Source: Antedon mediterranea
Taxonomy: Eukaryota; Echinodermata; Crinoidea; Comatulida; Antedonidae
NCBI RefSeq assembly: GCF_964355755.1
Contig: NC_092676.1
Location: 3,082,288 to 3,146,287 of the forward strand
Length of the DNA stretch: 64,000 nucleotides
Reading direction: 5' to 3'
Position 1 is the first letter of the stretch. Each line of letters begins with the position of its first letter. This document shows positions 5,377 to 59,558 of this stretch, in pieces. The position numbers and the translations under genes were made by a program. The notes under the pieces are model-generated. The model made no database searches, had not been told where the DNA came from, and saw nothing but the letters and a program-made list of their open reading frames with translations.

Positions 5377-5382
5377 TTTATT
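5377..5382 (-). promoter_or_regulatory. AATAAA polyadenylation hexamer overlapping the LGR-A stop codon
   Basis: Minus strand reads GACAAATAAAAC; the TAA stop is inside AATAAA. If used it would give almost no 3' UTR. It may be chance in AT-rich sequence. Confidence 0.3.
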
Positions 5383-10757: not shown

Positions 10758-10805
10758 AAAATCAAAAGCGATGGAACAAGGATGGAAGATAATGCATCAC
10801 GATCT
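10758..10805 (-). pseudogene. LGR-A LRR exon, downstream half (split by BEL/Pao)
   Basis: Donor-side half of an LRR exon, ending at GTAAGTAAAAC. It encodes DRDALSSILVPSLLIL. Joined to 18757-18786 it makes a 78-nt exon; the LGR-B counterpart 45425-45499 is 75 nt and uninterrupted. The ATGGT at 10806-10810 is the target-site duplication. Confidence 0.8.
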
Positions 10806-10810
10806 ATGGT

Positions 10811-12074
10811 TGTAGCGTACTACGCGAGTTCGCTTGGTGGCGTGTGTGGTCAATCGACGCAGATAACAAAAGACACTGATCCAGCAAATACAATATCTAC
10901 AATTTATTTACAATAGACCGATCTTCCGTTCTGTTCTGGTGACTAAAAGAAGATAAAGGAAACTACATTACTTTCTATAATGTGTTACAGAATACAACGT
11001 TATTCAAGAAGTTACAGCGATATTATAATGAGTTAAATGAAAAGGTGTATAAGTGTACCAATTAAAATTAATATAAACATATCAATAGAATAGCGATCAC
11101 AACAATGTTACCATTAAAGCAACAAGTAACAAACGTATTCCTTATCAATTACCACTACAAGTTAAAACGAGCCATGGGGTTCAAAATATAAACCTACTTG
11201 ACTTTGACGCCTCAAATATACCAATCACAGTAAACAGATGCACTTGAACTACTCCCAGTTCAAAACAGCTGCAATATAAATAAATCGATCCTTGTTTATA
11301 ATTTATAACCCATCCCCTCTCAACTATCCAGTTGCTATTGGCAACCAAAACTTAAATTGCCCTCCAATGAATCGAAATGAGGCACCACTCAGGCATTACA
11401 CTTTATAATCGTTATACCTTAATACAAATGATGTATAGATTTCCAAACTACAGTAGGTTATTCTAAATAGCATACAACTGCTATAATGTATCAATAATAT
11501 CATAAAAAACATCCTAATTAGACATATTAAATCCTTATCGCAACTGGAGAATTTAAAACAATCACTAATATCAACAAAGGCAAGAAATATATATACGGTA
11601 TATAATGCATAGTTATAGTTTATAGCCTACCTACGGTATGAACGATAATATATATGTGATTAAAACAACTACTGTATATCGATAATGATACAGACTCTCA
11701 CGAGCCCAATAACGTCATAATCGATTATTCAACATTATAAACATAAAGTATTCTATAAAGAAAAAATCGGAATCAACTTACATATAAAAAGTAACAAGGT
11801 TGTCGAAATCACAAATGTTGCCAAATTACACATAAATGTTTCATACAATTAACCAAGCTTTCAAAGTTATAAACAAGTTGTAAAAGTTACAAACAAGTTC
11901 CAAATAAACAATTTGTCACAACAAAAAATTAGAAAAGTGTCGAGTTGGAGATGTGTCGCTGTTCAAACCCAAAATTCATCTCTCCTGGAATTTGGTCACA
12001 CCCCTATATATTAGACCTAGGAGCAACATCCACAAAATTATAGAGGGCGTTCTATTATATTTCAATACTTTACA
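10811..12074 (-). repeat. BEL/Pao 3' LTR
   Basis: 1264 bp; its plus-strand ends are TGTAGCGTACTACGCGAG and TTTCAATACTTTACA. It reads the same as the 17493-18756 copy wherever compared. Confidence 0.95.
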
Positions 12075-12090
12075 CTCCCCCCTTTAAACC
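12075..12090 (-). promoter_or_regulatory. BEL/Pao polypurine tract
   Basis: Minus strand GGTTTAAAGGGGGGAG directly abuts the 3' LTR, the usual site of plus-strand DNA priming. Confidence 0.85.
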
Positions 12091-12180
12091 AAACGGGTTT
12101 AACAATCACTTAATAAAAAGGTAAATGAAATATTATAAAAACTAAATACATATGTACATAGTAAACACGACTATAGGGTC

Positions 12181-17469: not shown

Positions 17470-17492
17470 ACTCGTATAGGCTAGTCAATCAC
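17470..17492 (-). promoter_or_regulatory. BEL/Pao leader between 5' LTR and ORF (primer-binding region)
   Basis: Only 23 bases separate the LTR from the ATG: minus strand GTGATTGACTAGCC and onward. The primer-binding site must fall here or use an unusual primer. It does not begin with the common TGG complement of a CCA tail. Confidence 0.4.
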
Positions 17493-18756
17493 TGTAGCGT
17501 ACTACGCGAGTTCGCTTGGTGGCGTGTGTGGTCAATCGACGCAGATAACAAAAGACACTGATCCAGCAAATACAATATCTACAATTTATTTACAATAGAC
17601 CGATCTTCCGTTCTGTTCTGGTGACTAAAAGAAGATAAAGGAAACTACATTACTTTCTATAATGTGTTACAGAATACAACGTTATTCAAGAAGTTACAGC
17701 GATATTATAATGAGTTAAATGAAAAGGTGTATAAGTGTACCAATTAAAATTAATATAAACATATCAATAGAATAGCGATCACAACAATGTTACCATTAAA
17801 GCAACAAGTAACAAACGTATTCCTTATCAATTACCACTACAAGTTAAAACGAGCCATGGGGTTCAAAATATAAACCTACTTGACTTTGACGCCTCAAATA
17901 TACCAATCACAGTAAACAGATGCACTTGAACTACTCCCAGTTCAAAACAGCTGCAATATAAATAAATCGATCCTTGTTTATAATTTATAACCCATCCCCT
18001 CTCAACTATCCAGTTGCTATTGGCAACCAAAACTTAAATTGCCCTCCAATGAATCGAAATGAGGCACCACTCAGGCATTACACTTTATAATCGTTATACC
18101 TTAATACAAATGATGTATAGATTTCCAAACTACAGTAGGTTATTCTAAATAGCATACAACTGCTATAATGTATCAATAATATCATAAAAAACATCCTAAT
18201 TAGACATATTAAATCCTTATCGCAACTGGAGAATTTAAAACAATCACTAATATCAACAAAGGCAAGAAATATATATACGGTATATAATGCATAGTTATAG
18301 TTTATAGCCTACCTACGGTATGAACGATAATATATATGTGATTAAAACAACTACTGTATATCGATAATGATACAGACTCTCACGAGCCCAATAACGTCAT
18401 AATCGATTATTCAACATTATAAACATAAAGTATTCTATAAAGAAAAAATCGGAATCAACTTACATATAAAAAGTAACAAGGTTGTCGAAATCACAAATGT
18501 TGCCAAATTACACATAAATGTTTCATACAATTAACCAAGCTTTCAAAGTTATAAACAAGTTGTAAAAGTTACAAACAAGTTCCAAATAAACAATTTGTCA
18601 CAACAAAAAATTAGAAAAGTGTCGAGTTGGAGATGTGTCGCTGTTCAAACCCAAAATTCATCTCTCCTGGAATTTGGTCACACCCCTATATATTAGACCT
18701 AGGAGCAACATCCACAAAATTATAGAGGGCGTTCTATTATATTTCAATACTTTACA
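17493..18756 (-). repeat. BEL/Pao 5' LTR
   Basis: 1264 bp, same sequence as the 3' LTR. It should carry the element's promoter. The polyprotein ATG lies only 23 bases inside it. Confidence 0.95.
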
Positions 18757-18786
18757 ATGGTAGTTATAGTATTGTTTTCTATGTTC
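18757..18786 (-). pseudogene. LGR-A LRR exon, upstream half (split by BEL/Pao)
   Basis: Acceptor TTTTAACAG, then 30 bases encoding NIENNTITT and part of the next codon, stopping at the retrotransposon LTR. Same phase (2) as the LGR-B exon, which reads NLDNNAITT. Confidence 0.8.
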
Positions 18787-19641: not shown

Positions 19642-19713
19642 AGTCTTTCCAATGCTTTTAAACCATTAAATGCATTTTCTGGCAATTTCCTTATTTGGTT
19701 ATTTTCCAACCTC
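19642..19713 (-). CDS. LGR-A LRR exon (72 nt)
   Basis: Acceptor TTATTGTAG, donor GTAAGT, phase 2 in and out. Encodes one LRR: RLENNQIRKLPENAFNGLKA then LERL. Its LGR-B counterpart is 46875-46946. Confidence 0.85.
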
Positions 19714-20225: not shown

Positions 20226-20297
20226 AGTAAAGTCAATGATGTCAAACCAACAAATGCATTGGATTGCAATGTACTTATCTCAAAATCTCTCAACCAC
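20226..20297 (-). CDS. LGR-A LRR exon (72 nt, WLRDF type)
   Basis: Acceptor CCTTGAAG, donor GTGAGT, phase 2 in and out. Begins WLRDFEISTLQSNAF. The counterpart in LGR-B is 47635-47706, with the same WLRDF start. Confidence 0.85.
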
Positions 20298-20477: not shown

Positions 20478-20555
20478 AGTTCTGGCAGTGATGTCAAACC
20501 ATTGAATGCATAGGCTTCCAGTGTACTTATTTGATTGGTTTCGAACAAGTCATTT
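20478..20555 (-). CDS. LGR-A LRR exon (78 nt)
   Basis: Acceptor TTTCTTTAG, donor GTGAGT. Encodes NDLFETNQISTLEAYAFNGL then TSLPEL. LGR-B has an 84-nt counterpart at 48632-48715. Repeat P copy 2 starts 10 bases upstream of the acceptor, so it may replace part of the native branch-point region. Confidence 0.8.
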
Positions 20556-21821: not shown

Positions 21822-21854
21822 CTGTATCCAACGATTTGCCCAATGTGCAGTATC
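21822..21854 (-). CDS. LGR-A 33-nt micro-exon
   Basis: Acceptor TACTTTGAAG, donor GTATTTTTC, phase 2 in and out, encoding ILHIGQIVGY plus split codons. LGR-B has the same-length exon in the same place (49744-49776, ILHVGQITDY). Conservation of length, phase and both splice sites is the evidence. It would insert 11 residues between LRR modules. Confidence 0.6.
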
Positions 21855-22187: not shown

Positions 22188-22259
22188 AGTGTTTCCAATG
22201 CTGTCAAACCAGCAAATGCATTGGCTGGTAATGTACTTATTTGGTTACTGCTCAAATCC
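22188..22259 (-). CDS. LGR-A LRR exon (72 nt)
   Basis: Acceptor CTTTTAAG, donor GTAAGTG, phase 2. Begins DLSSNQISTLPANAFAGL. Confidence 0.85.
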
Positions 22260-22885: not shown

Positions 22886-22957
22886 AGTGTTTCCAATGCT
22901 GTCAAACCAGCAAATGCATTGGCTGGTAATGTACACATTTCGTTACCGTACAAATAC
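22886..22957 (-). CDS. LGR-A LRR exon (72 nt)
   Basis: Same frame and splice pattern. Begins YLYGNEMCTLPANAFAGL; a cysteine replaces the usual Ser/Arg before TLP. Confidence 0.85.
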
Positions 22958-24181: not shown

Positions 24182-24253
24182 AGTGTTTTCAATGCTGTCA
24201 AACCAGCAAATGCATTGGCTTGTAATGTACTTATTTGGTTAATGTACAAATAC
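24182..24253 (-). CDS. LGR-A LRR exon (72 nt)
   Basis: Phase 2 in and out. Begins YLYINQISTLQANAFAGL. Confidence 0.85.
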
Positions 24254-24519: not shown

Positions 24520-24591
24520 AGGTATTCCAATGCTGTCAAATCAGCAAATGCATTGGCTGGTAATGTTCTTATTTTGTTCCTGTCCAAATTC
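24520..24591 (-). CDS. LGR-A LRR exon (72 nt)
   Basis: Phase 2 in and out. Begins NLDRNKIRTLPANAFADL and ends LEYL. Confidence 0.85.
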
Positions 24592-26347: not shown

Positions 26348-26419
26348 AGTGTTTTCAATGTTGTCAAAACAGCAAATGCATTGGCTGGTAATGTACTTAT
26401 TTGGTTACTGCTCAAATCT
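26348..26419 (-). CDS. LGR-A LRR exon (72 nt)
   Basis: Phase 2 in and out. Begins DLSSNQISTLPANAFAVL. Confidence 0.85.
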
Positions 26420-26924: not shown

Positions 26925-26996
26925 AGTGTTTCCAATGCTGTCAAACCAGCAAATGTATGGGGTGGTAATGTACATATTTCGTTACCGTACAAATAC
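26925..26996 (-). CDS. LGR-A LRR exon (72 nt)
   Basis: Phase 2 in and out. Begins YLYGNEICTLPPHTFAGL; differs from neighbours at PPHT. Confidence 0.85.
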
Positions 26997-27269: not shown

Positions 27270-27341
27270 AGGTATTCCAATGCTGTCAAATCAGCAAATG
27301 CATTGGCTGGTAATGTACTTATTTGGTTCCTGCCCAAATTC
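27270..27341 (-). CDS. LGR-A LRR exon (72 nt)
   Basis: Phase 2 in and out. Begins NLGRNQISTLPANAFADL and ends LEYL. Confidence 0.85.
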
Positions 27342-27728: not shown

Positions 27729-27800
27729 AGTGTTTCCAATGCTATCAAACCAGCAAATGCATTGGCTGGTAATGTACTTATTTGGTTATACCTCAAATCC
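27729..27800 (-). CDS. LGR-A LRR exon (72 nt)
   Basis: Phase 2 in and out. Begins DLRYNQISTLPANAFAGL. Confidence 0.85.
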
Positions 27801-27987: not shown

Positions 27988-28045
27988 AAGAAAAACTTAT
28001 TCCAACGATATTAAACAAGCAAATACATTGACTGGTATAAAACCA
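27988..28045 (-). pseudogene. Decayed LRR exon
   Basis: AAAAACTTATTCCAACGATA and AAGCAAATACATTGACTGGTA match the donor half of neighbouring LRR exons with deletions; the acceptor half is missing. It should not be spliced in. Confidence 0.6.
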
Positions 28046-28151: not shown

Positions 28152-28223
28152 AGTGTTTTAAATTCTGTCAAACCAGCAAATACATTGGCTGGTAATGTAC
28201 TTATTTGGTTATATCTCAAATCC
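28152..28223 (-). CDS. LGR-A LRR exon (72 nt)
   Basis: Phase 2 in and out. Begins DLRYNQISTLPANVFAGL and ends FKTL. Confidence 0.85.
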
Positions 28224-35862: not shown

Positions 35863-35934
35863 AAGTATTCCAATTCTGCCAAACCAGCAAATGCATTGGC
35901 TTGTAATGTTCTTATTTTGTTACTGTACAAATAC
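35863..35934 (-). CDS. LGR-A first LRR exon (72 nt)
   Basis: Acceptor TTTCAAG, donor GTAAGTG, phase 2 in and out. Begins YLYSNKIRTLQANAFAGL and ends LEYL. It is separated from the next LRR exon (28152) by 7.6 kb of inserted repeats. Confidence 0.85.
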
Positions 35935-36349: not shown

Positions 36350-36494
36350 AATGCTGTTATTGGATCATACACATTGTACTTAACAAGCTCTGTATGTATA
36401 TTTGCATTCTATCGAGTACATCTAGTGTCATTAAGACAATAACCATTTGAGTAACACGTCTGGACATTGCATGTGCAATATGTTGAGCATCCGT
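36350..36494 (-). pseudogene. LGR-A LRR N-cap exon with in-frame stop
   Basis: 145 nt; acceptor ATCATTATAG (phase 1 in), donor TT|GTAGGT (phase 2 out). The cysteine cluster GCSTYCTCNVQTC is the LRR N-terminal cap, followed by VYDPITAL. The codon TAG at 36411-36409 stands where LGR-B (58997-59138) has TGG in CTRW. All other positions align without indel except one extra codon. Confidence 0.85.
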
Positions 36495-43320: not shown

Positions 43321-44345
43321 TCACAATGTATTAAGTGGAATCTGTACAGGTGCCGGTTGACGCACTTTGCACTTAAACATATAAGCAATTGTGTAAAGAT
43401 ACGGATTGACTGAGGAGTTGATGGGGATGATAAATGTCGCTGCCCAAACATATATTTCATCAGGAATCGTCATCCAACCCGTCTCGGAACCAATTGCCAT
43501 TACTATAATCGGGGCCCAGCAACAGAAATCAGTGAAAACTATCAAGCCAATTTTTCTGGCCATTTTCAACTGTTTTTTCCTCCTCTGTTCACTATTGACA
43601 GTGGCCCCCGATCTCTTCACTGACAAGAAAATTGTCAGATAACTAAGTACAATTACAAGAAAGCCGACGCCATTAAAGGCAACAAAAATGGCAACAGCAT
43701 ACTCCCAACCTGGCCACCGACTTCTGGTTAAAGGAAGTGCAAGGCACACGCTTTCCTTTCCATAATAATTGTCACCAAAATACGATAAGCTTAATTCATT
43801 GGCTATCACTGGAAGAAAACTCAGCACAATCCAGAATAGCCATCCGAAGCCGATAATGATTCGACATTTTGTACGATTGAGGCGTTTCGTACTAAATGGA
43901 TTAACAATGTTAATAGCTCGATCCACACTCAGCAGCATCAGTGTAAACACTGATAACTGCCCAGACAGTGTAGAAATAGCTCCTGCAAAGCTGCAAAGGA
44001 AACTGCTCTTCCAATCCCTTGCAGCTGTCGCGTACCGTCCACGATAGTGTACATCCACACTGGCAATGATGATCAGGTAGACTGCCATCAGCAAGTCAGA
44101 AACGGCAAGATTAGTAATGAGTGTGGTTTGGGCCTTATTAAAATCGTTACTATCATTATCTTTTTTAAACTTTCGTGAAACGATAACAACAACATTCCCA
44201 ATGACCGAAGATAACCCGATAATCATCATCAACACACGGAGACGTTCATTTTTTAGCAAGTCTTCACACGATGAAAATGCATCTGAAGGCTCGCAGACAT
44301 CGATGGCGCCAACAAGGCAACAGAGACTAGAGTATTCCGAGTACC
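43321..44345 (-). CDS. LGR-B hinge and seven-transmembrane exon
   Basis: Acceptor GATTATTTTAG, phase 2 in; stop TGA at 43323-43321. Numbering from the upstream ATG at 44388: hinge cysteines 23, 24, 32 and 41; TM1 about 50-72; TM2 87-112 with NLAVSD; TM3 131-155; DRA at the DRY position (156-158); TM4 176-195; TM5 229-255; TM6 277-302; TM7 311-337 with NPYLY 328-332. YRGRY and YFGDNYYG match the relaxin-receptor loops. The C-terminal tail is short. Clearly paralogous to 5378-6503 but without the 22-residue cysteine-rich hinge insert. Confidence 0.92.
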
Positions 44346-47300
44346 TAAAATAATCAAAACATTCTTGAGTTTTGAAATTTGTGCACATTTTTTAGTCACC
44401 CACCTGTATTCTTGAAATACCCACCAGCAACTAATTCAAGTTTATGTATCTCCCTTTTATTTAGCAGTCCCACACTGCGAGTAGATTAACAGAATGCTCA
44501 TGTGACTTAAGCACACATTTAGTGGCACATTTGTGAATTTCAAAAACATGCAAAATACAATTTTGAGAAACAAGAGAGATCTTTATCGTCGTAAGTTTCC
44601 ACAATCATCCTGTTGATTGTAAACTAGTCAGTGTGGTGGCAGTCTTTCACAGATGGTTTTGGGATTAGTAAAATACTTTTATTTCTATTTTAATTTATTT
44701 TTTTTAATAGATTTTTTTTTAAATTTATTTTTTTCAACAATTAATTTATTTTTACAAGGGAGTTACTTGGATTGCCCAAATTTTGATAAATCATTACTTA
44801 CAATTCCTTTAAGCTTATCAATTGATGAAAGGTCCTGTCCCTGTAAACCTGTAACTTGTTGCCTTTTAATTGTCTAAAAAAAAATAAATTTAAACTAAAT
44901 AAGTTTGTTTTCACACTTCTTAATTCCTTCATTACTTAATATATATGCTGTACATATTAACATTTCTTATTTTAATACTGTACAGAAGGAATAATAAGTT
45001 TAGATTTGTGTGTGTGTGTGTGTGTGTGAACAACACAAATAGGTTAATGCTAAACTATCAAACTTTATGTGAAAACCATATGGACACGATGATATCATAT
45101 TACTACCATATTCAGCACATCACACATTTTGTCCTTGAACTAGTTTCATAGTGTAGATTAGAGTTTAGTTACACATTGCACTGATTATATAAGCATGTGT
45201 TCGCAGTTGCGAATCCATGATATCCGAAATGTGGAACACTATTGAATTAGTGGTAAATCACACGCACTAATATTGTTAAGAATAATTCAATTGAGGCAGT
45301 CAAAGGGGAATGTTCCCCCTGATCCTGATACAAACCAAATCAATTCAGGTCATCGTAATTATGTGTTGTGTACATTCAGGAAGGCAACTACATGCAAATT
45401 ATATCTTACATAATGTTAACTTACAAAATTAAAAGTGATGAAGCAAAAGAAGAGAATGCCTCAGGATCTATGGTAGTTATAGCGTTGTTATCTAAGTTCC
45501 TGTTTAAAGATAAATTAATAGACATTTAATAAATATTTGTTTATTGAAAAATATGTTTTATTTAAAAATGTTATGTCCCCTATCAAATCAGACTTTGAAT
45601 AGGCCGTTTTGTTATTTTAATAAAGTTATTCACTTCCATAGAATAAAAAAATTAAAACAAATAATGTTTTCACTTATAAAAAGACAAAGTAAATGGTTAA
45701 ATTCAACAATTTATATTTTGCTTAATATATATATGTTTTTTTGGTCAAAGTGAATTTAAATATTTATGTGACAATTAAAAACATTGTTTTTTTTAAATAT
45801 TTGGACAATGTATCTTTAAGACTATATTACGATTTAAAATGTTATACTGAGAGTAACAAGCATTCCTGCTTGAAACTACGGTAGTTATTATACAGTAGAG
45901 GTAATGATGAAAGAAAAGTCTATCTGGAGCTGACTACACCACAGACTCATTCATTCATTCATTCATTCTTTATTTAGCCTTTAAAATCGAAATACATTTA
46001 AAACAAGGTAACAAAAACAAGACAGGGTGGAAATCTAAGGAGGCAAGGATAAGCAAAAGCAATTATAATCGCTGTAGCTCTCAGGCTTGCTTATCCATCC
46101 TTAGACTAAAAATAAAATAATTTATAGTAATTAAAATCATATAATAATATATAATTTGTTTGATTCAGTCTTATGGTAAGATTTCATTCTTTTTAAAGTC
46201 ACGGAAATATCTTTAAATCAATTAATCAATTATAATTAATGTTGTTCATTCGAATTCCATTGACTGACACATGTGTTTACTCATTGTTTGTTAGGGCAGT
46301 CCATGAAATTCAGTATTAACTGGAATAATTATAATAACCATAATTTAGGAAGTATTGAAAAAAACTCCAAATGATTTCAAACATTGGTACCAGTGTTACA
46401 GCAATGTTAGGGCAGTCCATGACATCCAGTATCAACTGGAATAATTAGAATAGTTCTAAAACCTTAAATGATAAATAATACAAATTATGGTCTTGCTAGT
46501 TTGAGCAGTAAATTAAGTTAGTTGCAAATCGATTTAATATAAACACTGCATTTACCCCTTTTATTTTTGTTTTCAGGTTAAAGTTTTTATATATATAGAT
46601 TCTTCCATTTACAGTTTTGTTGGCAACCAAACCCACTGCGCTAATTAGTCTTAAGCTTTACTTGCCCAGCCTGTAAATGTTTTGCTTTATCCTAGAGAAT
46701 AGTAACCCTTTTATAGTACAAAAGTGTTATTTCAGGCAAGTCGACCAGTGGCTTCAGGTTCATCATCATAAAATAGGCATAATTTTACAAAAATGTAATT
46801 GAAAGATTACACTATAAAATGCATATTGTACAATGTAGTGATTTGGGATAAATTTGTTCAGATATTATACTCACAGTTCTGTCAATTCTGTCAAACCATT
46901 AAATGCATTTGCTGGCAATTTCTTTATTTGGTTATTGTCCAACCTCCTATAATAAAGAATACACAGTGAAAAGAAATTAAAATATCCAAGAAATTGTGTC
47001 CGCTTGACTTTTCATAATATGACTTTATTCCTGTGGAAACCACTTGTAAATGGACACCTCATAACGGATACTCACATAAAAGTCTGTGTGTCCTTTTTAT
47101 TCAATATAGTGCATTGGTATGTACCATTAGGGAAGAGTGGAATTACTTTCCCTGGTACCATCTTAAATCATCTCAAACATTTCCATAAGAAGACAGGAAA
47201 AACATTTCATTTGTATAGATAACTTCTAAAAACTTTTTATTTTCTAAAAATAATTTTAAATACTGAAATCTCTGTTACTTTACTTTAAAATAGCCCATAT

Positions 47301-50300
47301 TGGAGAATTAGACGCTATACATTAAATTCATTCATTCATTCATTCTTTACTTGGTCCAATATAAAAATACATCAGAAATTCTTCTTATATACACTGCAGA
47401 GATAATAACAATATACGTACATGCAGAAAACAATCAATATAAAAAATCACTGATAAAATATCAATTCTAATTCTCCGACTGGGCAATTATCACAAAATTT
47501 AATTCAATATTGTGTTTTGTCTGATTGTGAAATCTACTTTTGACTTACTTTATAACAAAATTTAAACATGAACTCATTTTTTTATGTAGTAATTCAATTA
47601 TAATTATAAAGTACATATCAATAAAAATACTCACAGCAATGTCAATGCAGTTAAACCAAAAAATGCATTTGCTGGCAATGTGCTTATCTTGAAATCTCTC
47701 AACCACCTTCAAGATAAAACAATTTAGTATTAACCAATTAGCAGACCATGTATTAAAAAATAAATTTCATGTTTTGCGATATGTATTACATATTATTAAG
47801 TCTATTTCGTGAGATCCCTACCTGTATAGACTCTACATATGCCATTATTCCCAATATGGACACCCCTCGTAAGGAAAATGGAATAGTCCAGGCGCCGTAG
47901 CGGGCCGCGTAATTTTTTTTTCCAGGACGAACGTGGGCAGAAATCATGAATAATTCATGATTAATTATGACATAATAGGGATCTACTGTATGTATCGATG
48001 TAAATTGGGGGGGGGGGGGGGGTAGGATAGGGGTTGATAGTTGCTTTTGCCTTTTTTACTTTTCTGTTAATTGTTATATTTTATATTGTGAAGGATGCAC
48101 CTTTGTGCTAAGTGTGCCACCGATCTAAAGGTGTAATTCCAAATAAATAAATAAATAAAATAGGGAACATTATAGAGGGCGCTATATAAGAATGCAGAGA
48201 GATTAAATAATTAGTGCAAACAACGTTTGCCAACCGAAATGTTTGGTCTAGCGGTAAAGGCTTTAACCTATTACGCTGAATTATTTAGAGGGTTAGGTTT
48301 AGTATATTTAGGAAGTAGATCAGCTATCTTTCAATTCTTTATAATAGAAAATAATTAAGGTAATGAATTATTCATGACTTCTGCCCACGTTCGTCCTGGA
48401 AAAAAAAACACAGCGAGGGGAGGCGAGGGGGTTTCTATACAGGTAGGTATCTCACTCATAGACTATACCAACACCACTGTTGGTTTGTGTAATCATATAC
48501 CATCTGTAAGTGGCCATGTTTTTTTGTTGGTTTTAGTTTGGAACAAAAATTATTACAAAAATTTTCTAAAATTTAGTTTTATTTGAAAATTCTAGAAAGT
48601 TTGTAGGAATTCAGAGTAAAAAAATACTCACAGTTGTGGCAGTGATTTCAACCCATTAAATGCATAGGCTTCCAGTGTACTAATTTGATTAGTTTCTTCC
48701 ACCCACCAGTCAGGACTAAAGAAAAGGAAAGTTCAGTAAGAAAAAATTGCAGTATTCAAAACTATATATACTACTATAAACTATAATTTAAAACCATTAG
48801 TTACCATTAAAGATGAGATCTAAGAATTCTAATTCTCCGACTGGGTAATTATCACAAAATTTAATTCAAAATTGTGTTTTGTCTGCTTGTGAAATGTTAC
48901 TTTTCTTTGTTTTCCACGGGATTACACTGTAGTGATATAGGTGGACAACATTATACATCGCAATTCAGTTATTTTTGTAAACACACATATCCCCCCCCCC
49001 AGTTTTTTAATGGTGGTGGGGGAGGGGGATCCTGTTGTCACCGCTGTAATTCAATAAATGAAACAGGTACTGAAATGGTACTGAATGATGCTTCATTTTA
49101 TGAAAACCACATAAAATAATCATGATTATTGAAAGAAAATTAGACATTGGTATAAGAAATGCATTAAAAAAGTAGAAATAACAAAGCAATTTCAATAAAT
49201 ATGTAAATAATGTTTAGGTAAGTTTTGATTTTTAAAGAATAGGTTTAAGCAGCAAGACAAGAAATATGATATGAACTAACTTTAATTTTATAGCCTTGTT
49301 TTGTTCACATTCATTTATTCATTCATATTCAATATCATAAGTAAAAAATAGACATTTTGTTCTCATAGTACACTGTTTAAGCTAAATTATGTTACAAAAT
49401 AAAATATAACAGTTTATTATATCTCAACCGTATGTTGTAACAGTAAATAAAAATATAATTATATTTTATTTGTATTACCAACTGAATGGATCTTTTAAAG
49501 GGTAAAGTATGTTTTTTTTTTTTATAGGCATGTTGCAAGTCATGACAAAATATCTTTTATTTTTTAACAGCAAACTGTAGTGATAGTAGGCCTAGTGTCA
49601 CTTAACCCTGAACGGAATGATAATAATGAAATGGCAAAGATTAAAACTGTGTAGCATTTTTTAATTCATTTTTGCTGTACATACATTGAACTAATGAATT
49701 ATTAATCAAAAGAAATTCATAAGAGTAACTATAAAAAAAATACCTGTAATCAGTGATTTGCCCGACGTGCAATATCCTTCAAAGTAAGAGAAATACAAAG
49801 TAATTGTTATTATAAAAAAAATATATATATATATATATTTTGATAATTCAAAACAAAATAACTACATAAACAAAATGTAGTAAATCTTACTTAAATGATA
49901 TTTAAATTGTAAAATATTATTTTACAACTGAAAATTTATTTTGATTGATTATTATCTTACAAAAAATAAAAAAAATTCATAGTGAATTCATTAAAAAGAA
50001 GTTGTTATTTTTGGGGTTGGGTGTGGGGAGTGGTTTAAACTTATAATCACATAATATAATTATATATTAATTATTTTGTTATAGTTGTCCTACAATGTAA
50101 AATACAATTTCTAATTTAACTTTTTAATTAAAACTAAATTGTAGTACAGTAAATACATTATACTGCATGTAATCCATCTATTGTATACTTTAGTATGTCA
50201 AAATATAATATGTTAAAATAAAAATTTGGTAAATATATTTAATAATTTATTTCCTAAAACAAAATTTTTACACCAAATTCAAATCTTTAGCAACCATAAT

Positions 50301-53300
50301 AAATGTATTATCTAATATGTAATACAGATTCAGTTTCTATTGTTATATCTTACAAAAATAAATAATTCAATCAAGGTGTATACATTTTAAAAATGTTGAT
50401 TTTAAGATTATTTGAAATAATTTGATAAATTTAAAAATGTTGATTTTAAAATTCTTTTTCTGTAAATAGTCGTAATGTACACATTAGTCCATTTTTACAA
50501 TTGAACCTACAATGAATGCACTCCATTGTATAAACATTTTAATGTCAAAATATAAAATATAGGCCTATACTGTATGTAAATTTTAATTTTAAATCACTAC
50601 ATAAACAAGTACTACTGTAATTATTTAGTAACATTTGTTATAATGATATTTATATTGTGACATTTACAATAAAAATTTATTTTGAATTATTTTTATTTAA
50701 AAAAAATAAAATGTGTTCATGGTGGATGAGCAAAAAACTACTGATTTTTAAGATATTTTCTATAAGATCACAAATTGTGAAATTTTGTAAACATTTTAAT
50801 CCATTATCATTGTTTAACCAACAAAGTAAAATAATTTGTAATTTAATTCTAAATTAAACCAAATTTGTAAAAGTAAGCAAACACAAGCAATACACTTACA
50901 GTTTTGTCAATGCTGTCAAACCAGCAAATGCATTGGCTGGTAATGTACTTATTTGGTTCCAGTTCAAATACCTTAAAAGTAAAAAGAATGCACAGTATAA
51001 GTAAATCACAATATCCAAGCTGTTTTTAAATTATTTTAGTTTTTCTGTCACCTCAAATGTTGAAATGTCTACATTCCTGTACATTATACAGTAGTTATAT
51101 TGGATGTACTCTATTCACTTTCAATTGTTATGTCTTACAAAAATAAATAATTCAATCATGGTGGATAAATAAAAAAAATTTGATTTTCAAATAATTCTTT
51201 TAGCTATACATACAAATATAAAATATATATTTATATAATTTTTTTCTCATAAGACAAAATTAATACATAAAAAAATACTAATTATTTAGTGACATTTGTT
51301 ATAATAATATTTATATTGTGACATTTACAAAAAAATTTATTTTGAAATATTATTATTTAAAAAAATAAAATTCATTCATGGTGAATGAGCAAAAAACTAG
51401 TTATTTTTTTTAATTATTTTTTATAAGATCACAAATTGTGAAATTATATAATAATAATCCATTATCATTGATTAACCAACAATGTAAAATAATTTGTAAT
51501 TTAAGCAATACACTTACAGTGTTTCCAATGCTGTCAAACCAGCAAATGCATTGGCTGGTAATGTACTTATTTGGTTACTGCTCAAATCCCTTAAAAATAA
51601 AAAGAATGCACAGTATAAGTAAATCACAATATCCAAGCTGTATTTAAATTATTTTAGTTTTTCTGTCACCTCAAATGTTGAAATGTGTACATTCCTGTAC
51701 ATTATACAGTAGTTATATTGGATGTACTCTATTGTATGTACTTAAGTTATGTCAAAATATACTATGTTAAAATAAAAATGTGGTAAATATATTTAAATTC
51801 ACATTTTTGAATTGTTTTACAACAATAAATAATTCAATCATGGTAGATAAATAAAAACAAATGTTGATTTTAAAATTCTTTTTACAGTAAATAATTAAAT
51901 TATGGAATCATAGTCCATTATTACAATTGAACCTACAATGCATGCATTGTATTGTATCAATATTTTATGGAAAAATATACAATATATATGTAAATTTTAA
52001 TAGTTTTTATTCTCATAAGACAAAATTATTACATAAATAAATATTAATTATTTAGTAACATTCATTATAATGATATTTATATTGCAAATATTTAAAATCA
52101 AAGATAAATTTTGAATTATTATATATTACAGAAAAAATAAAGTTCATTCATGGTGGATGAACTATGAGACTAGTGATTTTTAAAGATATTTTTATAAGAT
52201 CACAAATTGTGAAATTATGTAATAATATTAATCCATTATCATTGCTTAACCAACAGTGTAAAATAATTTTATATTTAATTTCTATATTTAAACCAAATTG
52301 GTAAAAGTAAGCAAACATAAGCAATACACTTACAGTTTTTTCAATGCTGTCAAACCAGCAAATGCATTGGCTTGTAATGTACTTATTTGGTTACCGCCCA
52401 AATACCTTAAAAATAAAAAGAATGCACAGTATAAGTATAATCACAATATCCAAACTGTTTTAAAATTATTTTAGTTTTTCTGTCACCTCAAATGTTGAAA
52501 TGTCTACATTCCTGTACATTATACAGTAGTTATACTGCATGTACTCTATTGTATGTACTTTAGTTATGTCAAAATATACTATGTTAAAATAAAAATGTGG
52601 TAAATATATTTAAATTCACATTTTTGAATTGTTTTACAACAATAAATAATTCAATCATGGTAGATAAATAAAAACAAATGTTGATTTTAAAATTCTTTTT
52701 ACAGTAAATAATTAAATTATGGAATCATAGTCCATTATTACAATTGAACCTACAATGCATGCATTGTATTGTATCAATATTTTATGGAAAAATATACAAT
52801 ATATATGTAAATTTTAATAGTTTTTATTCTCATAAGACAAAATTATTACATAAATAAATATTAATTATTTAGTAACATTCATTATAATGATATTTATATT
52901 GCAAATATTTAAAATCAAAGATAAATTTTGAATTATTATATATTACAGAAAAAATAAAGTTCATTCATGGTGGATGAACTATGAGACTAGTGATTTTTAA
53001 AGATATTTTTATAAGATCACAAATTGTGAAATTATGTAATAATATTAATCCATTATCATTGCTTAACCAACAGTGTAAAATAATTTTATATTTAATTTCT
53101 ATATTTAAACCAAATTGGTAAAAGTAAGCAAACATAAGCAATACACTTACAGTTTTTTCAATGCTGTCAAACCAGCAAATGCATTGGCTTGTAATGTACT
53201 TATTTGGTTACCGCCCAAATACCTTAAAAATAAAAAGAATGCACAGTATAAGTATAATCACAATATCCAAACTGTTTTAAAATTATTTTAGTTTTTCTGT

Positions 53301-56300
53301 CACCTCAAATGTTGAAATGTCTACATTCCTGTACATTATACAGTAGTTATACTGCATGTACTCTATTGTATGTACTTTAGTTATGTCAAAATATACTATG
53401 TTAAAATAAAAATGTGGTAAATATATTTAAATTCACATTTTTGAATTGTTTTACAACAATAAATAATTCAATCATGGTAGATAAATAAAAACAAATGTTG
53501 ATTTTAAAATTCTTTTTACAGTAAATAATTAAATTATGGAATCATAGTCCATTATTACAATTGAACCTACAATGCATGCATTGTATTGTATCAATATTTT
53601 ATGGAAAAATATACAATATATATGTAAATTTTAATAGTTTTTATTCTCATAAGACAAAATTATTACATAAATAAATATTAATTATTTAGTAACATTCATT
53701 ATAATGATATTTATATTGCAAATATTTAAAATCAAAGATAGATTTTGAATTATTTTATATTACAGAAAAAATAAAGTTCATTCATGGTGGATGAACTATG
53801 AGACTAGTGATTTTTAAAGATATTTTTATAAGATCACAAATTGTGAAATTATGTAATAATATTAATCCATTATCATTGCTTAACCAACAGTGTAAAATAA
53901 TTTTATATTTAATTTCTATATTTAAACCAAATTGGTAAAAGTAAGCAAACATAAGCAATACACTTACAGTTTTTTCAATGCTGTCAAACCAGCAAATGCA
54001 TTGGCTTGTAATGTACTTATTCGGTTCCTGCTCAAAGACCTTAAAAGTAAAAAGAATGCACAGTATAAGTAAATCACAATATCCAAGCTGTTTTTAAATT
54101 ATTTTAGTTTTTCTGTCACCTCAAATGTTGAAATGTCTACATTCCTGTGCATTATACAGTAGTTATACTGCATGTACTCTATTGTATGTACTTTAGTTAT
54201 GTCAAAATATACTATGTTAAAATACAAATATGGTAAATAACTTTAATAACTTATTATCTTATAACAAAATCTCTACACCAAATGTAATTGTTTGTTAGCA
54301 ACCATATAATAAATGTATTATGTAATACAGATTCACTTTCAATTGTTATGTTACAAAAATAAATAATTCAATCATGGTGGATAAATAAAAAAATTTTGAT
54401 TTTAAAATAATTCTTTTAGCTATAGGCCTACATACAAATATAAAATATATATTTATATAATTTTTTTCTCATAAGACAAAATTAATACATAAAAAAATAC
54501 TAATTATTTAGTGACATTTGTTATAATAATATTTATATTGTGACATTTACAATAAAAATTTATTTTGAAATATTATTATTTAAAAAAATAAAATTCATTC
54601 ATGGTGAATGAGCAAAAAACTAGTTATTTTTTTAAATTATTTTTTATAAGTTCACAAATTGTGAAATTATGTAATAATATTAATCCATTATCATTGCATA
54701 ACCAACAATTAATTAAACAAATAATTTGTAATTTAATTTCTAAATTAAACCAAATTGTTAAAAGTAAGCAAACATAAGCAATACACTTACAGTGTTTTCA
54801 ATGCTGTCAAACCAGCAAATGCATTGGCTTGTAATGTACTTATTTGGTTATAGCTCAAAGACCTTAAAAGTAAAAAGAATGCACAGTATAAGTAAATCAC
54901 AATATCCAAGCTGTCTTAAAATTTTAGTTTTTCTGTCACCTCAAATGTTGAAATGTCTACATTCTTGTACATTATTACTCTATTAGTGATGTCAAAATAT
55001 GTTAAGTTAAAATAAATGTGGTAAATATAATTATTTTAATAATTTATTTTTATAAATCAATTGTTTGGTCAACCATAATAAATGTATTATCTAATATGTT
55101 AAACAGATTCAATTTAAATTGATATCTTACAAAATAAATAGTTCAATCATGGTGGATAAATTTAAGAATTGTTGCTTTTTAAATTTGTTTTACTATAAAT
55201 AATCATGAAATCATAAGGTACATATTAGTCCATTATTACAATTGAACCTACAATGCATGCATTGTATTGTGTCAACATTTTATTGATGTCAAAATAAAAA
55301 TTATTAAAAGTAAATATTCATCTCAAAACGTATGAATGTATAGTTGTACATGATATTGTTCACTATAGGTTTAATTATGTTACTCTGCACCTTATATCTT
55401 AATTTGTGTTTTATTTAGGGTTATCCCTTTGTTCTTATAATTATGGGATGCCACTGCCCTTTTTTTACCACTCAAACAAATAAAGACTTGGTTATACTGA
55501 TCGGTTTGATAAATGTGTATTTATTGAAGTCTGTGGTTGAATTTGAATATAATTATCAATTATCAAAGACAAAATTACTACATAAACAAATACTAGTTAT
55601 TTAGTAACAATGATTTTGATATTTATATCGTGAAATTATACAATAAAGGATTTCGAATTATTATTATTAATTAATTATTAATTGGTTACCGCTCAAATAC
55701 ATTAAAAGTAAAAAGAATGCACAGTATAAGTATAATCACAATATCCAAGCTGTTTTTAAATTATTTTATTTTTTCTGTCACCTCAAATGTTGAAATGTCT
55801 ACATTCCTGTACATTATACAGTAGTTATACTGCATGTACTCTATTGTATGTACTTTAGTTATGTCAAAATATATTATGTTAAAATAAAAATGTGGTAAAT
55901 ATATTTAAATTCACATTTTTGAATTGTATATAAAATATATATTTATATTACATAGCCTATGTAAATACGCGAACGTGATTGGTTGAAACTGCATCACATG
56001 ACTACCGCTGCGAGGATCGTAAATCGTATATATCCTCGAGAACGATGATATTGACTGTGTAATTTTCGCGTAATAATCGTGTCCCCTGTCATTAATCATA
56101 TAAATTCTCGAGTACGATGATATTGACTGTGTAATTTTCGTGTGCAACACTCGAGTTTGCCGATAAATAAACAAAAGTCATCTACTCGATCTTGAACTCG
56201 GGTGGAATTGTCACTCCATCGCAAGACAACGTTTCATCCGCTGGGCCACGGAATTTGCTTGAAGAAATTAATCTTCTAAACTTTTTAAGCTATGCATACA

Positions 56301-59138
56301 TAGCGCCCTCATTTGTTATAAGTCCACCCTAAATGTGATGAAACACCGTTTGTGATTGGTCAATACTCACGGTAGTAACCTAGTAACTAGTACGCGCTGA
56401 ACATCCGGTGATTCGGCTCCTCGAAGATCGAGAGAAGACGAATTCTTTATTCGGCCTACCTGATTATAATATTATTATTAATAGGCTTATTGATGGAAAT
56501 TCTTCTGTTAATTTAAACGACCTAGGCCTAAGTGAATATTTTATTGCCAAGGAATCATTAATTAGTAATTATCTGTATATTATTCTTCGCAAGGTAAGGT
56601 GTCTAGGCAGGCTTGTTTTAAATACAATACAAATACTATAGGAGGCCTAGGCCTAGCCTAGCTTCACCCAACCCAGCAGACTTGTTCTTGGCTATATAAT
56701 ATAACAGATATTGCCTTTTATATCGGTTAAATATAAGATTTGACATCCCCTCGGGAATGATATTAAGTTCGAGGAAATATATATTCCCTCGAACTTAATA
56801 TCATTCCCTCGGGGATGTCAAATCTTATATTTAACCTCTAAGCAGTCAATATCTGTATAATATAATTTTTTTCTCATAAGACAAAATTAATACATAAAAA
56901 AATACTAATTATTTAGTGACATTTGTTATAATAATATTTATATTGTGACATTTACAATAAAAATTTATTTTGAAATATTATTATTTAAAAAAATAAAATT
57001 CATTCATGGTGAATGAGCAAAAAACTAGTTATTTATTTTTATTATTTTTTATAAGATCACAAATTGTGAAATTATATAATAATAATCCATTATCATTGAT
57101 TAACCAACAATGTAAAATAATTTGTAATTTAAGCAATACACTTACAGTGTTTCCAATCCTGTCAAACCAGCAAATGCATTGGCTTGTAATGTACTTATTT
57201 GGTTACTGCTCAAAGACCTTAAAAGTAAAAAGAATGCACAGTATAAGTAAATCACAATATCCAAGCTGTTTTTAGATTATGTTAGTTTTTCTGTCACCTA
57301 GTGATTGACTATCATGTCAAAATATAATTTAAAAAATCAAATAATAATTGTTTAATAACATTCATTATAATTATATTTATGTAGTGAAATTCGAATTACA
57401 CAAAAATAAAGTTCATTCATGGTGGATGAACTAAAAACTAGTGATTTATAAAGTTATTGTGAATCAAAAATTGTGAAATTATATAATATTAATCCATTAT
57501 CATTGCTTAACCAACAATGTAAAATAATTGTTAATTTAATTTCTAAATTTAAACTACATTGGTAACTGTAAGCAAACATAAGCAATACACTTACAGTGTT
57601 TTCAATGCTGTCAAATTTCTAAAAGAAAATTTCTACACCAATTTCAAATTGTTTGTTAGCCACCATATTATGTAGTATCTAATATGTTATACAGATTCAA
57701 TTTAAATTGTTATCTTACAAAATAAATAGTTCAATCATGGTGGATAAATTTAAAAATTGTTGCTTTTTAAATTTGTTTTACTATAAATAATCATGAAATC
57801 ATAAGGTACATATTAGTCCATTATTACAATTGAACCTACAATGCATGCATTGTATTGTGTCAACATTTTATTGATGTCAAAATAAAAATTATTAAAAGTA
57901 AATATTCATCTCAAAACGTATGAATGTATAGTTGTACATGATATTGTTCACTATAGGTTTAATTATGTTACTCTGCACCTTATATCTTAATTTGTGTTTT
58001 ATTTAGGGTTATCCCTTTGTTCTTATAATTATGTGATGCCACTGCCCTTTTTTAACACTCAAACAAATAAAGACTTGGTTATACTGATCGGTTTGATAAA
58101 TGTGTATTTATTGAAGTCTGTGACATTTGTTGAATTTGAATATAATTATCAATTATCAAAGACAAAATTACTACATAAACAAATACTAGTTATTTAGTAA
58201 CAATGATTTTGATATTTATATCGTGAAATTATACAATAAAGGATTTCGAATTATTATATCCTCCAAAAAAAAAGTTCACTCATGAACAAGAAAATGAATT
58301 GTTTTTAGAGTTATTTTTATAAGTATAAAGATAATAAAATTATATAATAATATTAATCCATTATCAATGTGTAAATGTATTTATAAATTAAAAACAAACT
58401 GGTTAAAATAACCAAACATGTAAATTTGCCTTTGTTCCACACACAAAAGAATCACAAAAAGCTGGTAAAAATCACAAAATACAAACAATATAGTATAAAC
58501 TAGCAAATGTGAAAAATTAAAACATTAAAAATAATACAGAGCACTCTACTCTCATTCAGGATGTACACGTCACATTACTTGTTTTAACTACCTTATTTAT
58601 ATATATTCCAAATAGATGATTGACTGATTGGGAGCATGCACATAGCTGACCATGTTATAATTTTTGGAAAACTAAGGCCTACCTACCAAATACCTACAAT
58701 CGTTTTAATCATTTTTTTTTTAGTCTATCACATTCTTACGTAAAATGTCGTATACGGATATTGACCAGATTAATGATGAGCCCGTAAACTGATTGAAACG
58801 ACCTAAATATACTGTAGACCGCCACAAGACCAGTAGTTTCACATTAACAAATTCCACCCACTCCCCCTCTGTTCAATATTATCATGATCCTACTGTATAA
58901 AGCATGGACCTATTATCAAAGAAATATAAATTTTGCTCACAGTATGACATAAATTTAGTTAAATTTCAAAATATCGACAAAAGATGTTCTACTTACAATG
59001 TTGTTATTGGATCATACACATTGTACTCAACAAGCTCTGTATGTATATTTGTATTCCATCGAGTACATCTAGTTCTATTATAACAACCTGCTGAGTAACA
59101 CGTCGGGACATTACATGTGCAAGATGCTGGGCATCGGA
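43321..59138 (-). CDS. LGR-B: relaxin-receptor-like LRR-GPCR, apparently intact
   Basis: Paralogue of LGR-A. Exons on the minus strand: LRR N-cap 58997-59138; seven 72-nt LRR exons (57146, 54791, 53968, 53151, 52334, 51518, 50900 as left ends); 33-nt micro-exon 49744-49776; LRR exons 48632-48715, 47635-47706, 46875-46946, 45425-45499, 44802-44873; hinge and 7TM exon 43321-44345. Every exon after the N-cap joins in phase 2. The product would be a surface receptor with about twelve LRRs before a rhodopsin-type 7TM domain, coupling an LRR-bound ligand to G proteins by family analogy. The leader exon is not visible and probably lies right of 64000; an SRCR-like exon at 59559-59605 fits in phase upstream. 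Two extra LRR exon remnants (57595, 55680) are broken and presumably skipped. The ligand is unknown. Confidence 0.85.
44802..44873 (-). CDS. LGR-B last LRR exon (72 nt)
   Basis: Acceptor TTTTTTTTAG, donor GTAAGT, phase 2 in and out. Encodes QLKGNKLQVYRDRTFHQLI then SLKEL. No counterpart was found in LGR-A, where a LINE and hairpin repeats occupy the position. Confidence 0.8.
45006..45028. repeat. (TG)n microsatellite
   Basis: About eleven TG units in an LGR-B intron. Confidence 0.9.
45425..45499 (-). CDS. LGR-B LRR exon (75 nt), empty-site partner of the BEL/Pao insertion
   Basis: Acceptor TTTAAACAG, donor GTAAGTTAAC. Encodes NLDNNAITTIDPEAFSSFAS then SLLIL. The ATGGT duplicated around the BEL/Pao element occurs once here (45471-45475). 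Confidence 0.85.
45553..45823. mobile_element. MITE with ATGT(A)TTGTCCCC-like termini, copy 2 (degraded)
   Basis: TTTAAAAATGTTATGTCCCC on the left, GGACAATGTATCTTTAAGA on the right; interior TTTTCACTTATAAAAAGA as in copy 1. Confidence 0.6.
45950..46110 (-). mobile_element. LINE 3' end with (AATG)n tail
   Basis: Minus strand ends GGCTAAATAAAGAATGAATG and more AATG units. Similar tails stand at 47333-47360 and 49310-49330. Only the 3' UTR remains. Confidence 0.55.
46875..46946 (-). CDS. LGR-B LRR exon (72 nt)
   Basis: Donor GTGAGT, phase 2. Begins RLDNNQIKKLPANAFNGL. Counterpart of 19642-19713. Confidence 0.85.
47635..47706 (-). CDS. LGR-B LRR exon (72 nt, WLRDF type)
   Basis: Donor GTGAGT, phase 2. 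Begins WLRDFKISTLPANAFFGL. Counterpart of 20226-20297. Confidence 0.85.
47811..48451. mobile_element. TIR element (~640 bp) with a nested LINE tail
   Basis: GTGAGATCCCTACCTGTATAG at 47811 (read as two overlapping 20-mers) is mirrored at 48431-48451 (CTATACAGGTAGGTATCTCAC, one mismatch). The inner arms CCAGGACGAACGTGGGCAGA and TCTGCCCACGTTCGTCCTGG are also exact mirrors. Inside at 48085-48163 lies a LINE 3' tail (GTGCCACCG, AAAGGTGTAA, (AAAT)n) like that at 3700-3772. A poly-G run stands at 48008-48022. Confidence 0.75.
48632..48715 (-). CDS. LGR-B LRR exon (84 nt)
   Basis: Acceptor TTTCTTTAG, donor GTGAGT, phase 2. Starts PDWWVEETNQISTLEAYAF; six bases longer than the LGR-A counterpart 20478-20555. 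Confidence 0.8.
49744..49776 (-). CDS. LGR-B 33-nt micro-exon
   Basis: Acceptor TACTTTGAAG, donor GTATTTTTT, phase 2, ILHVGQITDY. Same length, phase and location as in LGR-A (21822-21854). Confidence 0.6.
49777..50899. other. LGR-B intron of LRR-unit repeats; no exon
   Basis: AT-rich sequence made of the same intron motifs as the LRR units (TTCAATCA(A/T)GGTG, CCATTATCATTG) but with no LRR exon. Confidence 0.5.
50900..50971 (-). CDS. LGR-B LRR exon (72 nt)
   Basis: Phase 2. Begins YLNWNQISTLPANAFAGL. Confidence 0.85.
51518..51589 (-). CDS. LGR-B LRR exon (72 nt)
   Basis: Phase 2. Begins DLSSNQISTLPANAFAGL. It lies in the first of the 817-bp-spaced units. Confidence 0.85.
52334..52405 (-). 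CDS. LGR-B LRR exon (72 nt)
   Basis: Phase 2. Begins YLGGNQISTLQANAFAGL; identical to the exon at 53151-53222. Confidence 0.85.
53151..53222 (-). CDS. LGR-B LRR exon (72 nt)
   Basis: Phase 2. Same sequence as 52334-52405, one 817-bp unit away. Confidence 0.85.
53968..54039 (-). CDS. LGR-B LRR exon (72 nt)
   Basis: Phase 2. Begins SLSRNRISTLQANAFAGL; its acceptor half differs from the previous two, its donor half is the same. Confidence 0.85.
54791..54862 (-). CDS. LGR-B LRR exon (72 nt)
   Basis: Phase 2. Begins SLSYNQISTLQANAFAGL. Confidence 0.85.
55135..55655. repeat. Segment duplicated at 57718-58255
   Basis: Near-identical over about 500 bases at an offset of about 2.59 kb (for example TACTCTGCACCTTATATCTT at 55381 and 57969). 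It contains a retroposon-like 3' end (ATGCCACTGCCC, AATAAAGACTTGG). Confidence 0.8.
55678..55702 (-). pseudogene. LRR exon remnant (acceptor end only)
   Basis: TTGGTTACCGCTCAAATAC matches the start of an LRR exon, but the acceptor AG reads TG and the rest of the exon is missing. Confidence 0.6.
55935..56704. other. CpG- and CCAAT-containing insert with a candidate plus-strand exon
   Basis: Interrupts the LRR-unit intron sequence. It has two inverted CCAAT boxes (GTGATTGGT near 55975 and 56350), a 30-base duplication (GATGATATTGACTGTGTAAT at 56044 and 56115), and an open frame 56408-56594 ending at AAG|GTAAGGTG. No family recognised. Confidence 0.45.
56408..56594 (+). CDS. Candidate first exon of unknown gene or transposon
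   Basis: ATG at 56408 opens about 62 codons (begins MIRLLEDREKTNSLFGLP) ending at a good splice donor CGCAAG|GTAAGG. Composition is coding-like (hydrophilic then mixed). It is preceded by a CpG-containing region with CCAAT. I do not recognise the protein; it may be the 5' exon of a DNA transposon or a gene remnant. No second exon was found downstream. Confidence 0.3.
56705..56855. repeat. Long near-perfect hairpin (~55-bp arms)
   Basis: Inner arms GATTTGACATCCCCTCGGGA ... TTAAGTTCGAGG and CCTCGAACTTAA ... CCCTCGGGGATGTCAAATC are mirrors, and the outer ends CAGATATTG / CAATATCTG also pair. Confidence 0.85.
57146..57217 (-). CDS. LGR-B LRR exon (72 nt), first complete one
   Basis: Phase 2. 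Begins SLSSNQISTLQANAFAGL. The flanking 56860-57300 is nearly identical to 51210-51650. Confidence 0.85.
57595..57615 (-). pseudogene. LRR exon remnant (donor end only)
   Basis: The donor GTAAGTG and 21 exon bases are kept; then the exon breaks into intron sequence (TTTCTAAAAG), so it has no acceptor. Confidence 0.65.
57718..58255. repeat. Second copy of the segment at 55135-55655
   Basis: See the first copy; same order of motifs, with a few small indels. Confidence 0.8.
58256..58996. other. LGR-B intron; nothing recognised
   Basis: AT-rich with no exon-like signal. Confidence 0.5.
58997..59138 (-). CDS. LGR-B LRR N-cap exon
   Basis: 142 nt, acceptor GGGCCTATAG (phase 1 in), donor TT|GTAAGT (phase 2 out). 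RCPASCTCNVPTC is a classic LRR N-terminal cap; it continues to VYDPITTL. The CTRW codon that is a stop in LGR-A is TGG here. Confidence 0.88.
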
Positions 59139-59558
59139 CTATAGGCCCTAATGATTTTGTAAAAAAAAACAAGCAGTAACTAAAAGTACTGTACTTTGTT
59201 TCTATCTTACATAGTAGAACACTACGATAATGATGAATAATGATGGTGATAACAATGAGTATTTTAAAGATGAACATAAATTCTTATAATTCGATATATC
59301 ATATTTAAGTTTCAATATTACACTGTTTAATTTAACGGTATTGTTTATTTCGTCGTGTTAAACAATGGAATATTATGAAAGGAGAATAAACGACGCCAAA
59401 AGTAGTTTAATCTCTTTTTTCTCTAACTGGGTAAACTCTTGAAAATAGAACTTATTTTTATATAATTTATAAAACAAAACACTCCCTCTTAGTCAATAGT
59501 GTATTGTAATACCGCCTGTTAGTACTGAAGTTTGTATTAAGTGTGAAATTGTCCTTAC

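Follow-up and report, generated by a model that had tools for sequence, protein, structure and literature searches.

Turnover, exchange and concave-face variation of LRR exon cassettes, as suggested by a relaxin-receptor-like LGR gene pair of Antedon mediterranea

Results

Gene layout of receptor A

The window, by which we mean the whole stretch of 64,000 nucleotides of Antedon mediterranea DNA that was analysed, contains two related genes on the minus strand. These are receptor A (59147-43321), a putative relaxin-receptor-like LGR gene, and receptor B (36494-5378), and each of them was followed from an LRRNT exon to a 7TM exon. The LRRNT exon of receptor A (58997..59147, 151 nt) starts in phase 1 and ends in phase 2, and it shows AG/GT ends and an open frame beginning with CPASCTC. 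Between this exon and the 7TM exon there are 13 exons, 10 of which are 72 nt long, while the remaining exons of the LRR region are 33, 84 and 75 nt long and all keep the frame. Seven 72-nt exons, here called cassettes A1 to A7, come first after the LRRNT exon. A1 (57146..57217), A2 (54791..54862), A3 (53968..54039) and A7 (50900..50971) were located by the exon scan and nhmmer, and A4 (53151..53222), A5 (52334..52405) and A6 (51518..51589) were characterised by exon comparison. They are followed by a 33-nt exon (49744..49776), which is below one LRR in length, was placed by the spliced frame and has a counterpart in receptor B at 21822-21854. After it come an 84-nt LRR exon (48632..48715, spliced frame), two 72-nt LRR exons called A9 (47635..47706, AG/GT ends) and A10 (46875..46946, exon scan and spliced frame), a 75-nt LRR exon (45425..45499) and a last 72-nt LRR exon (44802..44873), the latter two placed by the spliced frame. 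The hinge and 7TM exon (43321..44344) closes the gene.

Predicted splicing of the LRRNT exon, the 13 exons and the 7TM exon yields a single open frame of 693 aa, and at the predicted exon borders 14 of 14 introns are in phase 2 with AG/GT ends. The first-pass annotation had described the LRRs of both receptors as 72-nt exons between phase-2 introns, and the spliced frame, the AG/GT ends and the uniform intron phase in receptor A bear this out. The interval that it assigned to the two receptors, 44802..57217, does cover LRR exons of receptor A, but receptor B lies outside it, at 36494-5378. The 5' ends of both receptors were not found in the window, and a search with simple patterns for exons encoding a signal peptide gave none; for receptor A, whose LRRNT exon begins in phase 1, the 5' end may lie beyond position 64000. 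Immediately upstream of receptor A there is a satellite with an 83-bp unit (59901-63307, about 41 copies at 92% match).

The exon scan searched both strands for segments of the form AG-(66 to 78 nt)-GT whose beginning resembles an LRR. This yielded 26 matches on the minus strand, 20 of them exons of receptors A and B and 6 not, versus 4 on the plus strand, and its strict pattern overlooked three true 72-nt exons (47706, 44873 and 20297). The 17 cassettes were recovered by nhmmer with E-values of 6e-42 to 7e-33, using a model that was built from these same 17.

Receptor family

PF00001 matches the 7TM exons of both receptors, with E-values of 1e-31 for A and 7e-28 for B. When the 7TM exon of receptor A was compared with solved structures, human RXFP1 ranked first among the best 60 of 182 matches (157.7 bits, E 4e-45). 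Within the same best 60, the gonadotropin and thyrotropin receptors came next at 113 to 118 bits (FSHR 118.5), and further down were 8w1z (83 bits), for which no name beyond family-1 profile protein is given, and LGR4 at 54.6 bits or less. In the spliced protein of receptor A, LRR_8 (E 3e-90) and 7tm_1 are found in the same predicted frame. Receptor A shows traits of the LGR family, namely the combination of an LRR ectodomain with a 7TM domain of the rhodopsin type, and one LRR per phase-2 exon. An LDLa module, searched for with simple patterns in six frames of the 64-kb window, gave no match.

In both A and B, the frame of the 7TM domain runs through unbroken and lacks the phase-1 introns in TM2 and TM5 that are reported for some RXFP/LGR3 genes (PMC11863921). 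For some LGR4 genes a phase-0 intron after TM7 is reported (PMC11863921); the 7TM frame of receptor A continues to a stop codon shortly past TM7, ahead of which a splice may lie. Judged by sequence, we consider receptors A and B to be a pair of relaxin-receptor-like, LGR-type GPCRs, and we leave their subtype unassigned. No relative emerged when viral contigs were searched with the 7TM protein. Expansions of RXFP1/2-like receptors are described for deuterostome invertebrates, including 27 such sequences in sea urchin (PMC3310001), and a single orthologue of each related LGR type is described for every ambulacrarian studied (PMC8286064).

Layout and lesions of receptor B

The LRRNT exon of receptor B (36350..36494) carries an in-frame stop codon, TAG, at a place where the sequence of A has TGG. 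Ten central 72-nt cassettes follow, and this number against the seven of receptor A agrees with the earlier count. B1 (35863..35934), B2 (28152..28223), B3 (27729..27800) and B9 (22886..22957) were located by the exon scan and nhmmer. The exon scan and self-comparison gave B4 (27270..27341) and B5 (26925..26996), which form a two-exon block resembling B7 (24520..24591) and B8 (24182..24253). B6 (26348..26419) has a 5' intron that is closest to that of A3 by flank comparison, and B10 (22188..22259) was characterised by exon comparison. Downstream of the cassettes are a 33-nt exon (21822..21854) corresponding to that of receptor A, a 78-nt LRR exon (20478..20555) and a 72-nt LRR exon corresponding to A9 (20226..20297), and a 72-nt LRR exon corresponding to A10 (19642..19713, exon scan).

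The next exon, the counterpart of the 75-nt exon of receptor A, is split by an insertion. Comparison with A places its severed 5' part at 18757..18786 and its 3' part at 10758..10810, and between them lies a BEL/Pao LTR retrotransposon on the minus strand (10811..18756) with ACCAT on both sides. Its two 1264-bp LTRs are 100% identical, which indicates that the insertion is very recent. The element contains one frame of 1767 codons between stops. A counterpart of the last 72-nt LRR exon of receptor A was not found in receptor B by tblastn, and blastn gave matches at chance level only (E 0.1). The hinge and 7TM exon (5378..6503) has an open frame.

Considering the stop codon, the insertion and the missing exon, we rejected receptor B as a working second receptor, and it is very probably not intact. 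In the sequenced individual, receptor B probably represents either a young pseudogene or an allele that is inactive. The stop codon in its LRRNT exon could stem from a sequencing error, the insertion hardly.

Other elements occur in and near the introns of receptor B. Two long reverse-transcriptase frames (RVT_1; 7627-9801 and 30900-33491), by their look of the non-LTR type, lie in B introns on the plus strand, antisense to the gene. A tRNA-Asp-like sequence on the minus strand (34999-35070, anticodon atc by ARAGORN) is possibly part of a SINE. Pieces of a dispersed repeat that are 80-94% alike (29196-30255, 33709-34304 and 36956-37369) are located in or upstream of the long intron between B1 and B2.

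Probable exchange of cassettes between the receptors

The 7TM exons of A and B showed 69% DNA identity (673 of 975 aligned bases; 69-71% in local stretches), with dS of about 1.35 and dN of 0.26. Local matches between A and B cassettes that take in intron reached 93.2% identity (324 bp) and 95.0% identity (201 bp). We compared the flanks of all 70 A-B cassette pairs over 60 nt of upstream and 40 nt of downstream intron, counting gaps as mismatches. Their identity lay between 67% and 96% (median 81%), and 15 of the 70 pairs reached 90%, the closest being A3-B6 (96%), A3-B10 (95%) and A3-B8 (94%). The exons of A6 and B10 are identical at 72 of 72 bases. As the best cassette flanks, at 94-96%, are so much closer than the 7TM exons, it is probable that cassettes were swapped or copied anew once the two genes had separated. 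The closest cassettes appear younger than the rest of the A-B split, and most pairs are not specially close.

The 5' introns of the cassettes belong to two unrelated classes. On the one hand, the first class includes the A cassettes, with A1 and A2 less alike, as well as B2, B4 and B6. On the other hand, the second class is found in receptor B only, at B3, B5, B8, B9 and B10, and B1 and B7 fit neither class well. Exon types cross these classes, since DLSS is found in A6, B6 and B10 and DLRY in B2 and B3. The rank correlation of similarity was 0.23 between the 5' flank and the exon and 0.59 between the exon and the 3' flank. These patterns are consistent with cassettes that are mosaics built by exchange.

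The likeness of A and B could also go back to a single event in which the ectodomain array was copied as a block from one gene to the other, instead of to repeated exchange. In favour of this, the exons downstream of the array are 80-86% alike and closer than the 7TM part, with 80% over 351 bp at the 33-nt exon and 86% over 132 bp at the A10 exon (the LRRNT region shows 74% over 299 bp). However, A1-A7 and B1-B10 have no visible collinear order, and one 5' intron class is restricted to receptor B although its exons match A cassettes. We consider a single block copy rather unlikely, but it is the alternative that survives best, and a block copy with later shuffling within each gene is compatible with this single genome. 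Exchange of cassettes between A and B is nevertheless strongly suggested by the comparisons of exons and flanks.

Variable codons on the predicted concave face

Based on the LRR consensus LxxLxLxxNxL (PMC4561518), the codons at x2, x3, x5, x7, x8 and x10 were assigned to the predicted concave face. Among A1-A7, 11 of 18 concave sites are variable, whereas the remaining exon positions vary at 2 of 54 (P 7e-7) and the flanking intron at 13 of 104 (P 3e-5), in tests that count sites and not independent events and that keep gene conversion, which can shift several changes together, outside the model. The 104 intron positions are those left when 7 of 111 with a gap in any row are omitted. Minimal changes among A1-A7 fall on concave codons in 12 of 14 cases, and none of them is silent where 3.1 were expected (P 0.02-0.03). 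In receptor B, 12 of 18 concave sites are variable, which is more than elsewhere in the exon (16 of 54, P 0.01) but no more than in its flanking intron (66 of 104).

Taking all 17 cassettes together, 21 of 37 changes are concave compared with 9.3 expected, and whole codons hold 36 amino-acid variants and 1 silent variant. When the split leucine codon is included, 3 of 39 changes are silent compared with 10 expected under the intron mutation spectrum (P 0.004). Variation at silent exon sites is lower than in the intron of receptor B, and homogenisation or a constraint at the DNA level may also act on the exon core. Across the cassettes, not one silent variant occurs in the 17 non-concave whole codons, which comprise about 12.7 silent sites.

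The variable codons are located at both ends of the exon and are adjacent in the folded repeat, and this indicates selection on the protein. An origin of the concave variation of receptor A by gene conversion only was rejected because variable codons occur at both exon ends, and it is also opposed by the single variable site in the 37 intron bases just upstream. Relaxed constraint, under which the concave codons would vary freely and not through favoured change, could fit receptor B, which has lesions and whose concave sites vary at the rate of the flanking intron. In the intact receptor A, however, concave sites are about five times as variable as the flanking intron and silent changes are absent. 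Because relaxation alone cannot surpass the neutral rate, the pattern in A speaks against relaxed constraint, and we consider it an improbable explanation. Selection for new binding surfaces would account for the concave changes better. In human RXFP1, relaxin is described as contacting Asp231, Glu233, Glu277 and Asp279 (PMC4837482), and the spacing of two between these contacts would fit LRR positions x5 and x7.

Copy-number turnover of cassettes

An 817-bp tandem repeat of about 2.8 copies on the minus strand (51745..54021, with its low end taken as 52562 minus 817) covers part of the array of receptor A. With the sequence shifted by 817 against itself, the 1460 bases between 54021 and 52562, leading from A3 towards A6, hold 2 substitutions, and adjoining 817-bp units are 7 substitutions apart. 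The exons of A4 and A5 are identical. A3 and A4 differ at 5 of the first 18 exon bases and at none of the other 54, and their introns have 2 differences in the following 745 bases and 6 in 199 aligned bases upstream. In receptor B, the B7-B8 block is 85% identical to the B4-B5 block over 579 bp.

Exon fragments, one clear and two weaker, were found near the cassettes. A relic on the minus strand (55679..55746, nhmmer E 3e-14) retains the 5' part of a cassette and the 5' intron edge, its acceptor AG being lost and its 3' part gone. A 24-nt exon fragment or mini-exon of receptor A (57595..57618, minus strand) is in frame with AG/GT ends and has a partial nhmmer match at 57615-57587 (E 6e-5). In receptor B, a weak nhmmer match (27997..28037, minus strand, E 0.004) marks a possible relic, the decayed 3' part of a cassette. 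A 600-bp segment occurs twice, at 57647-58257 and 55059-55664, flanking cassette A1, and its copies are 97% identical; this duplicate is the sign of a more extensive rearrangement of the array.

That cassettes are gained and lost can almost be read directly from the sequence. The turnover in copy number that the first-pass annotation had singled out is thus corroborated by the near-identical 817-bp units, the exon fragments and the likely exchange between A and B. The array is likely to be a ready substrate for copy-number variation, and, judged from this one genome, cassette number may vary between living individuals.

Near-identical tandem units may also be an assembly artefact, with fewer cassettes in the true gene. 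The identical exons of A4 and A5 and the 2 differences in 1460 bases would suit such an error, but the differences that do exist are single substitutions, and A1, A2, A6, A7 and all B cassettes differ from A3-A5. Since all these cassettes are distinct, turnover does not depend on A3-A5 alone, and we give the artefact little credence.

Splice sites of the cassettes

The donor is gtaagtgt in 15 of the 17 cassettes and gtaagttt and gtaagtat in the other two. One acceptor or its one-base variant is used by 10 of the 17, and the other seven are slightly different. Combinatorial splicing, the second use that had been proposed for the array, found no support in the sequence, the splice sites of the 17 cassettes being much alike. 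That the cassette exons are a reservoir for alternative splicing, with many ectodomain isoforms from one gene, appears very unlikely to us: the frame would be kept whichever exon is skipped, the LRR exons of brown-algal ROCO genes, which match in size and phase, are described as alternatively spliced (PMC11378527) and repeat exons of ambulacrarian LGRs are reportedly 'sometimes skipped' (PMC8286064), but symmetric phase is ordinary in such genes, the uniform splice sites give no sign of regulated choice, and in human RXFP1 every splice variant characterised has reportedly lost its cAMP response to relaxin (PMC7196478).

Discussion

We propose that the central LRR ectodomain of these receptors is an array of interchangeable units, each of them a 72-nt phase-2 exon with its intron. 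As the units are phase-symmetric and embedded in repeated intron, unequal crossing-over or gene conversion could add, remove or swap cassettes and leave the frame intact. The recent tandem copying in receptor A, the exon fragments and the discordant cassette flanks are visible in the sequence itself. Cassettes would pass between A and B, and the best pairs, introns included, resemble each other more closely than anything else the two genes have in common. In receptor A, and in receptor B only relative to the rest of the exon, changes cluster in the predicted concave codons, and nearly all of them replace an amino acid. Receptor B seems to have been built in the same way and is now probably inactive. 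Taken together, turnover of a cassette array, exchange between A and B and selection on the concave face of an LGR pair form a reading in which we have fairly good confidence, drawn as it is from the DNA of one genome. The variation of concave codons and the lesions of receptor B are new beyond the first-pass annotation.

If this reading is true, a receptor of the endocrine type can remodel the surface that meets its ligand through duplication and exchange of exons, and the locus offers a defined place in which to measure exon number, variation in populations and ligand specificity side by side. It would also be a warning that LRR counts in such receptors are perhaps unstable characters and that transcript assemblies are possibly wrong. 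A further idea, which we put forward only tentatively, is that a GPCR of the hormone-receptor type has turned into a fast-evolving recognition system. In this case, individuals would differ in their cassettes and concave residues, the decaying paralogue would act as a donor, and selection would favour new ligand surfaces in an arms race, in gamete recognition or in coevolution with a ligand.

The variable lymphocyte receptors of lampreys also have LRR cassettes with variable concave residues, as in A and B. Their germline gene is incomplete and is completed by somatic insertion of cassettes. Whereas these receptors arise by somatic assembly, the genomic sequence of receptor A has an open frame from the LRRNT to the 7TM exon.

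Among the LGRs, receptor A shares an LRR ectodomain joined to a 7TM domain with those described as type C, namely RXFP1/RXFP2, starfish RXFP/LGR3 and LGR4 (PMC4561518, PMC11863921). Human RXFP1 is described with 10 LRRs and an LDLa module (PMC4561518, PMC11863921), in contrast to receptor A with its one-exon 7TM domain, no LDLa found and turnover of the central LRRs. Strict exon modularity of LRRs is reported for several human families (PMC6642158). Among the listed titles and abstract beginnings of the open-licence literature, we found no description of copy-number turnover of LRR exons in an LGR.

Arrays of LRR exons are known from ciliates, and shuffling of LRR exons together with concave selection is known from candidate immune receptors of brown algae. 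The arrays of Tetrahymena are described with a uniform exon length, a bias to phase 2, a number that varies via unequal crossing-over and retrotransposons nearby, as in our receptors; in contrast to A and B, their exons are 90 bp long and are found in many ciliate genes, and the portions of that source used here name no GPCR domain (PMC6564038). The brown-algal ROCO genes come closer. They are reported to contain arrays of 72-bp phase-2 exons with one LRR each, intense shuffling and variable, positively selected sites on the concave face, features that are shared with receptor A, but they encode LRR-ROC-COR proteins with splice variants that have been shown, while receptor A has 7tm_1 without ROC-COR (PMC11378527). 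The receptor array thus appears to work like the brown-algal ROCO arrays, without being a member of them, and what we describe is an evolutionary mechanism that is known from elsewhere, here in a new context.
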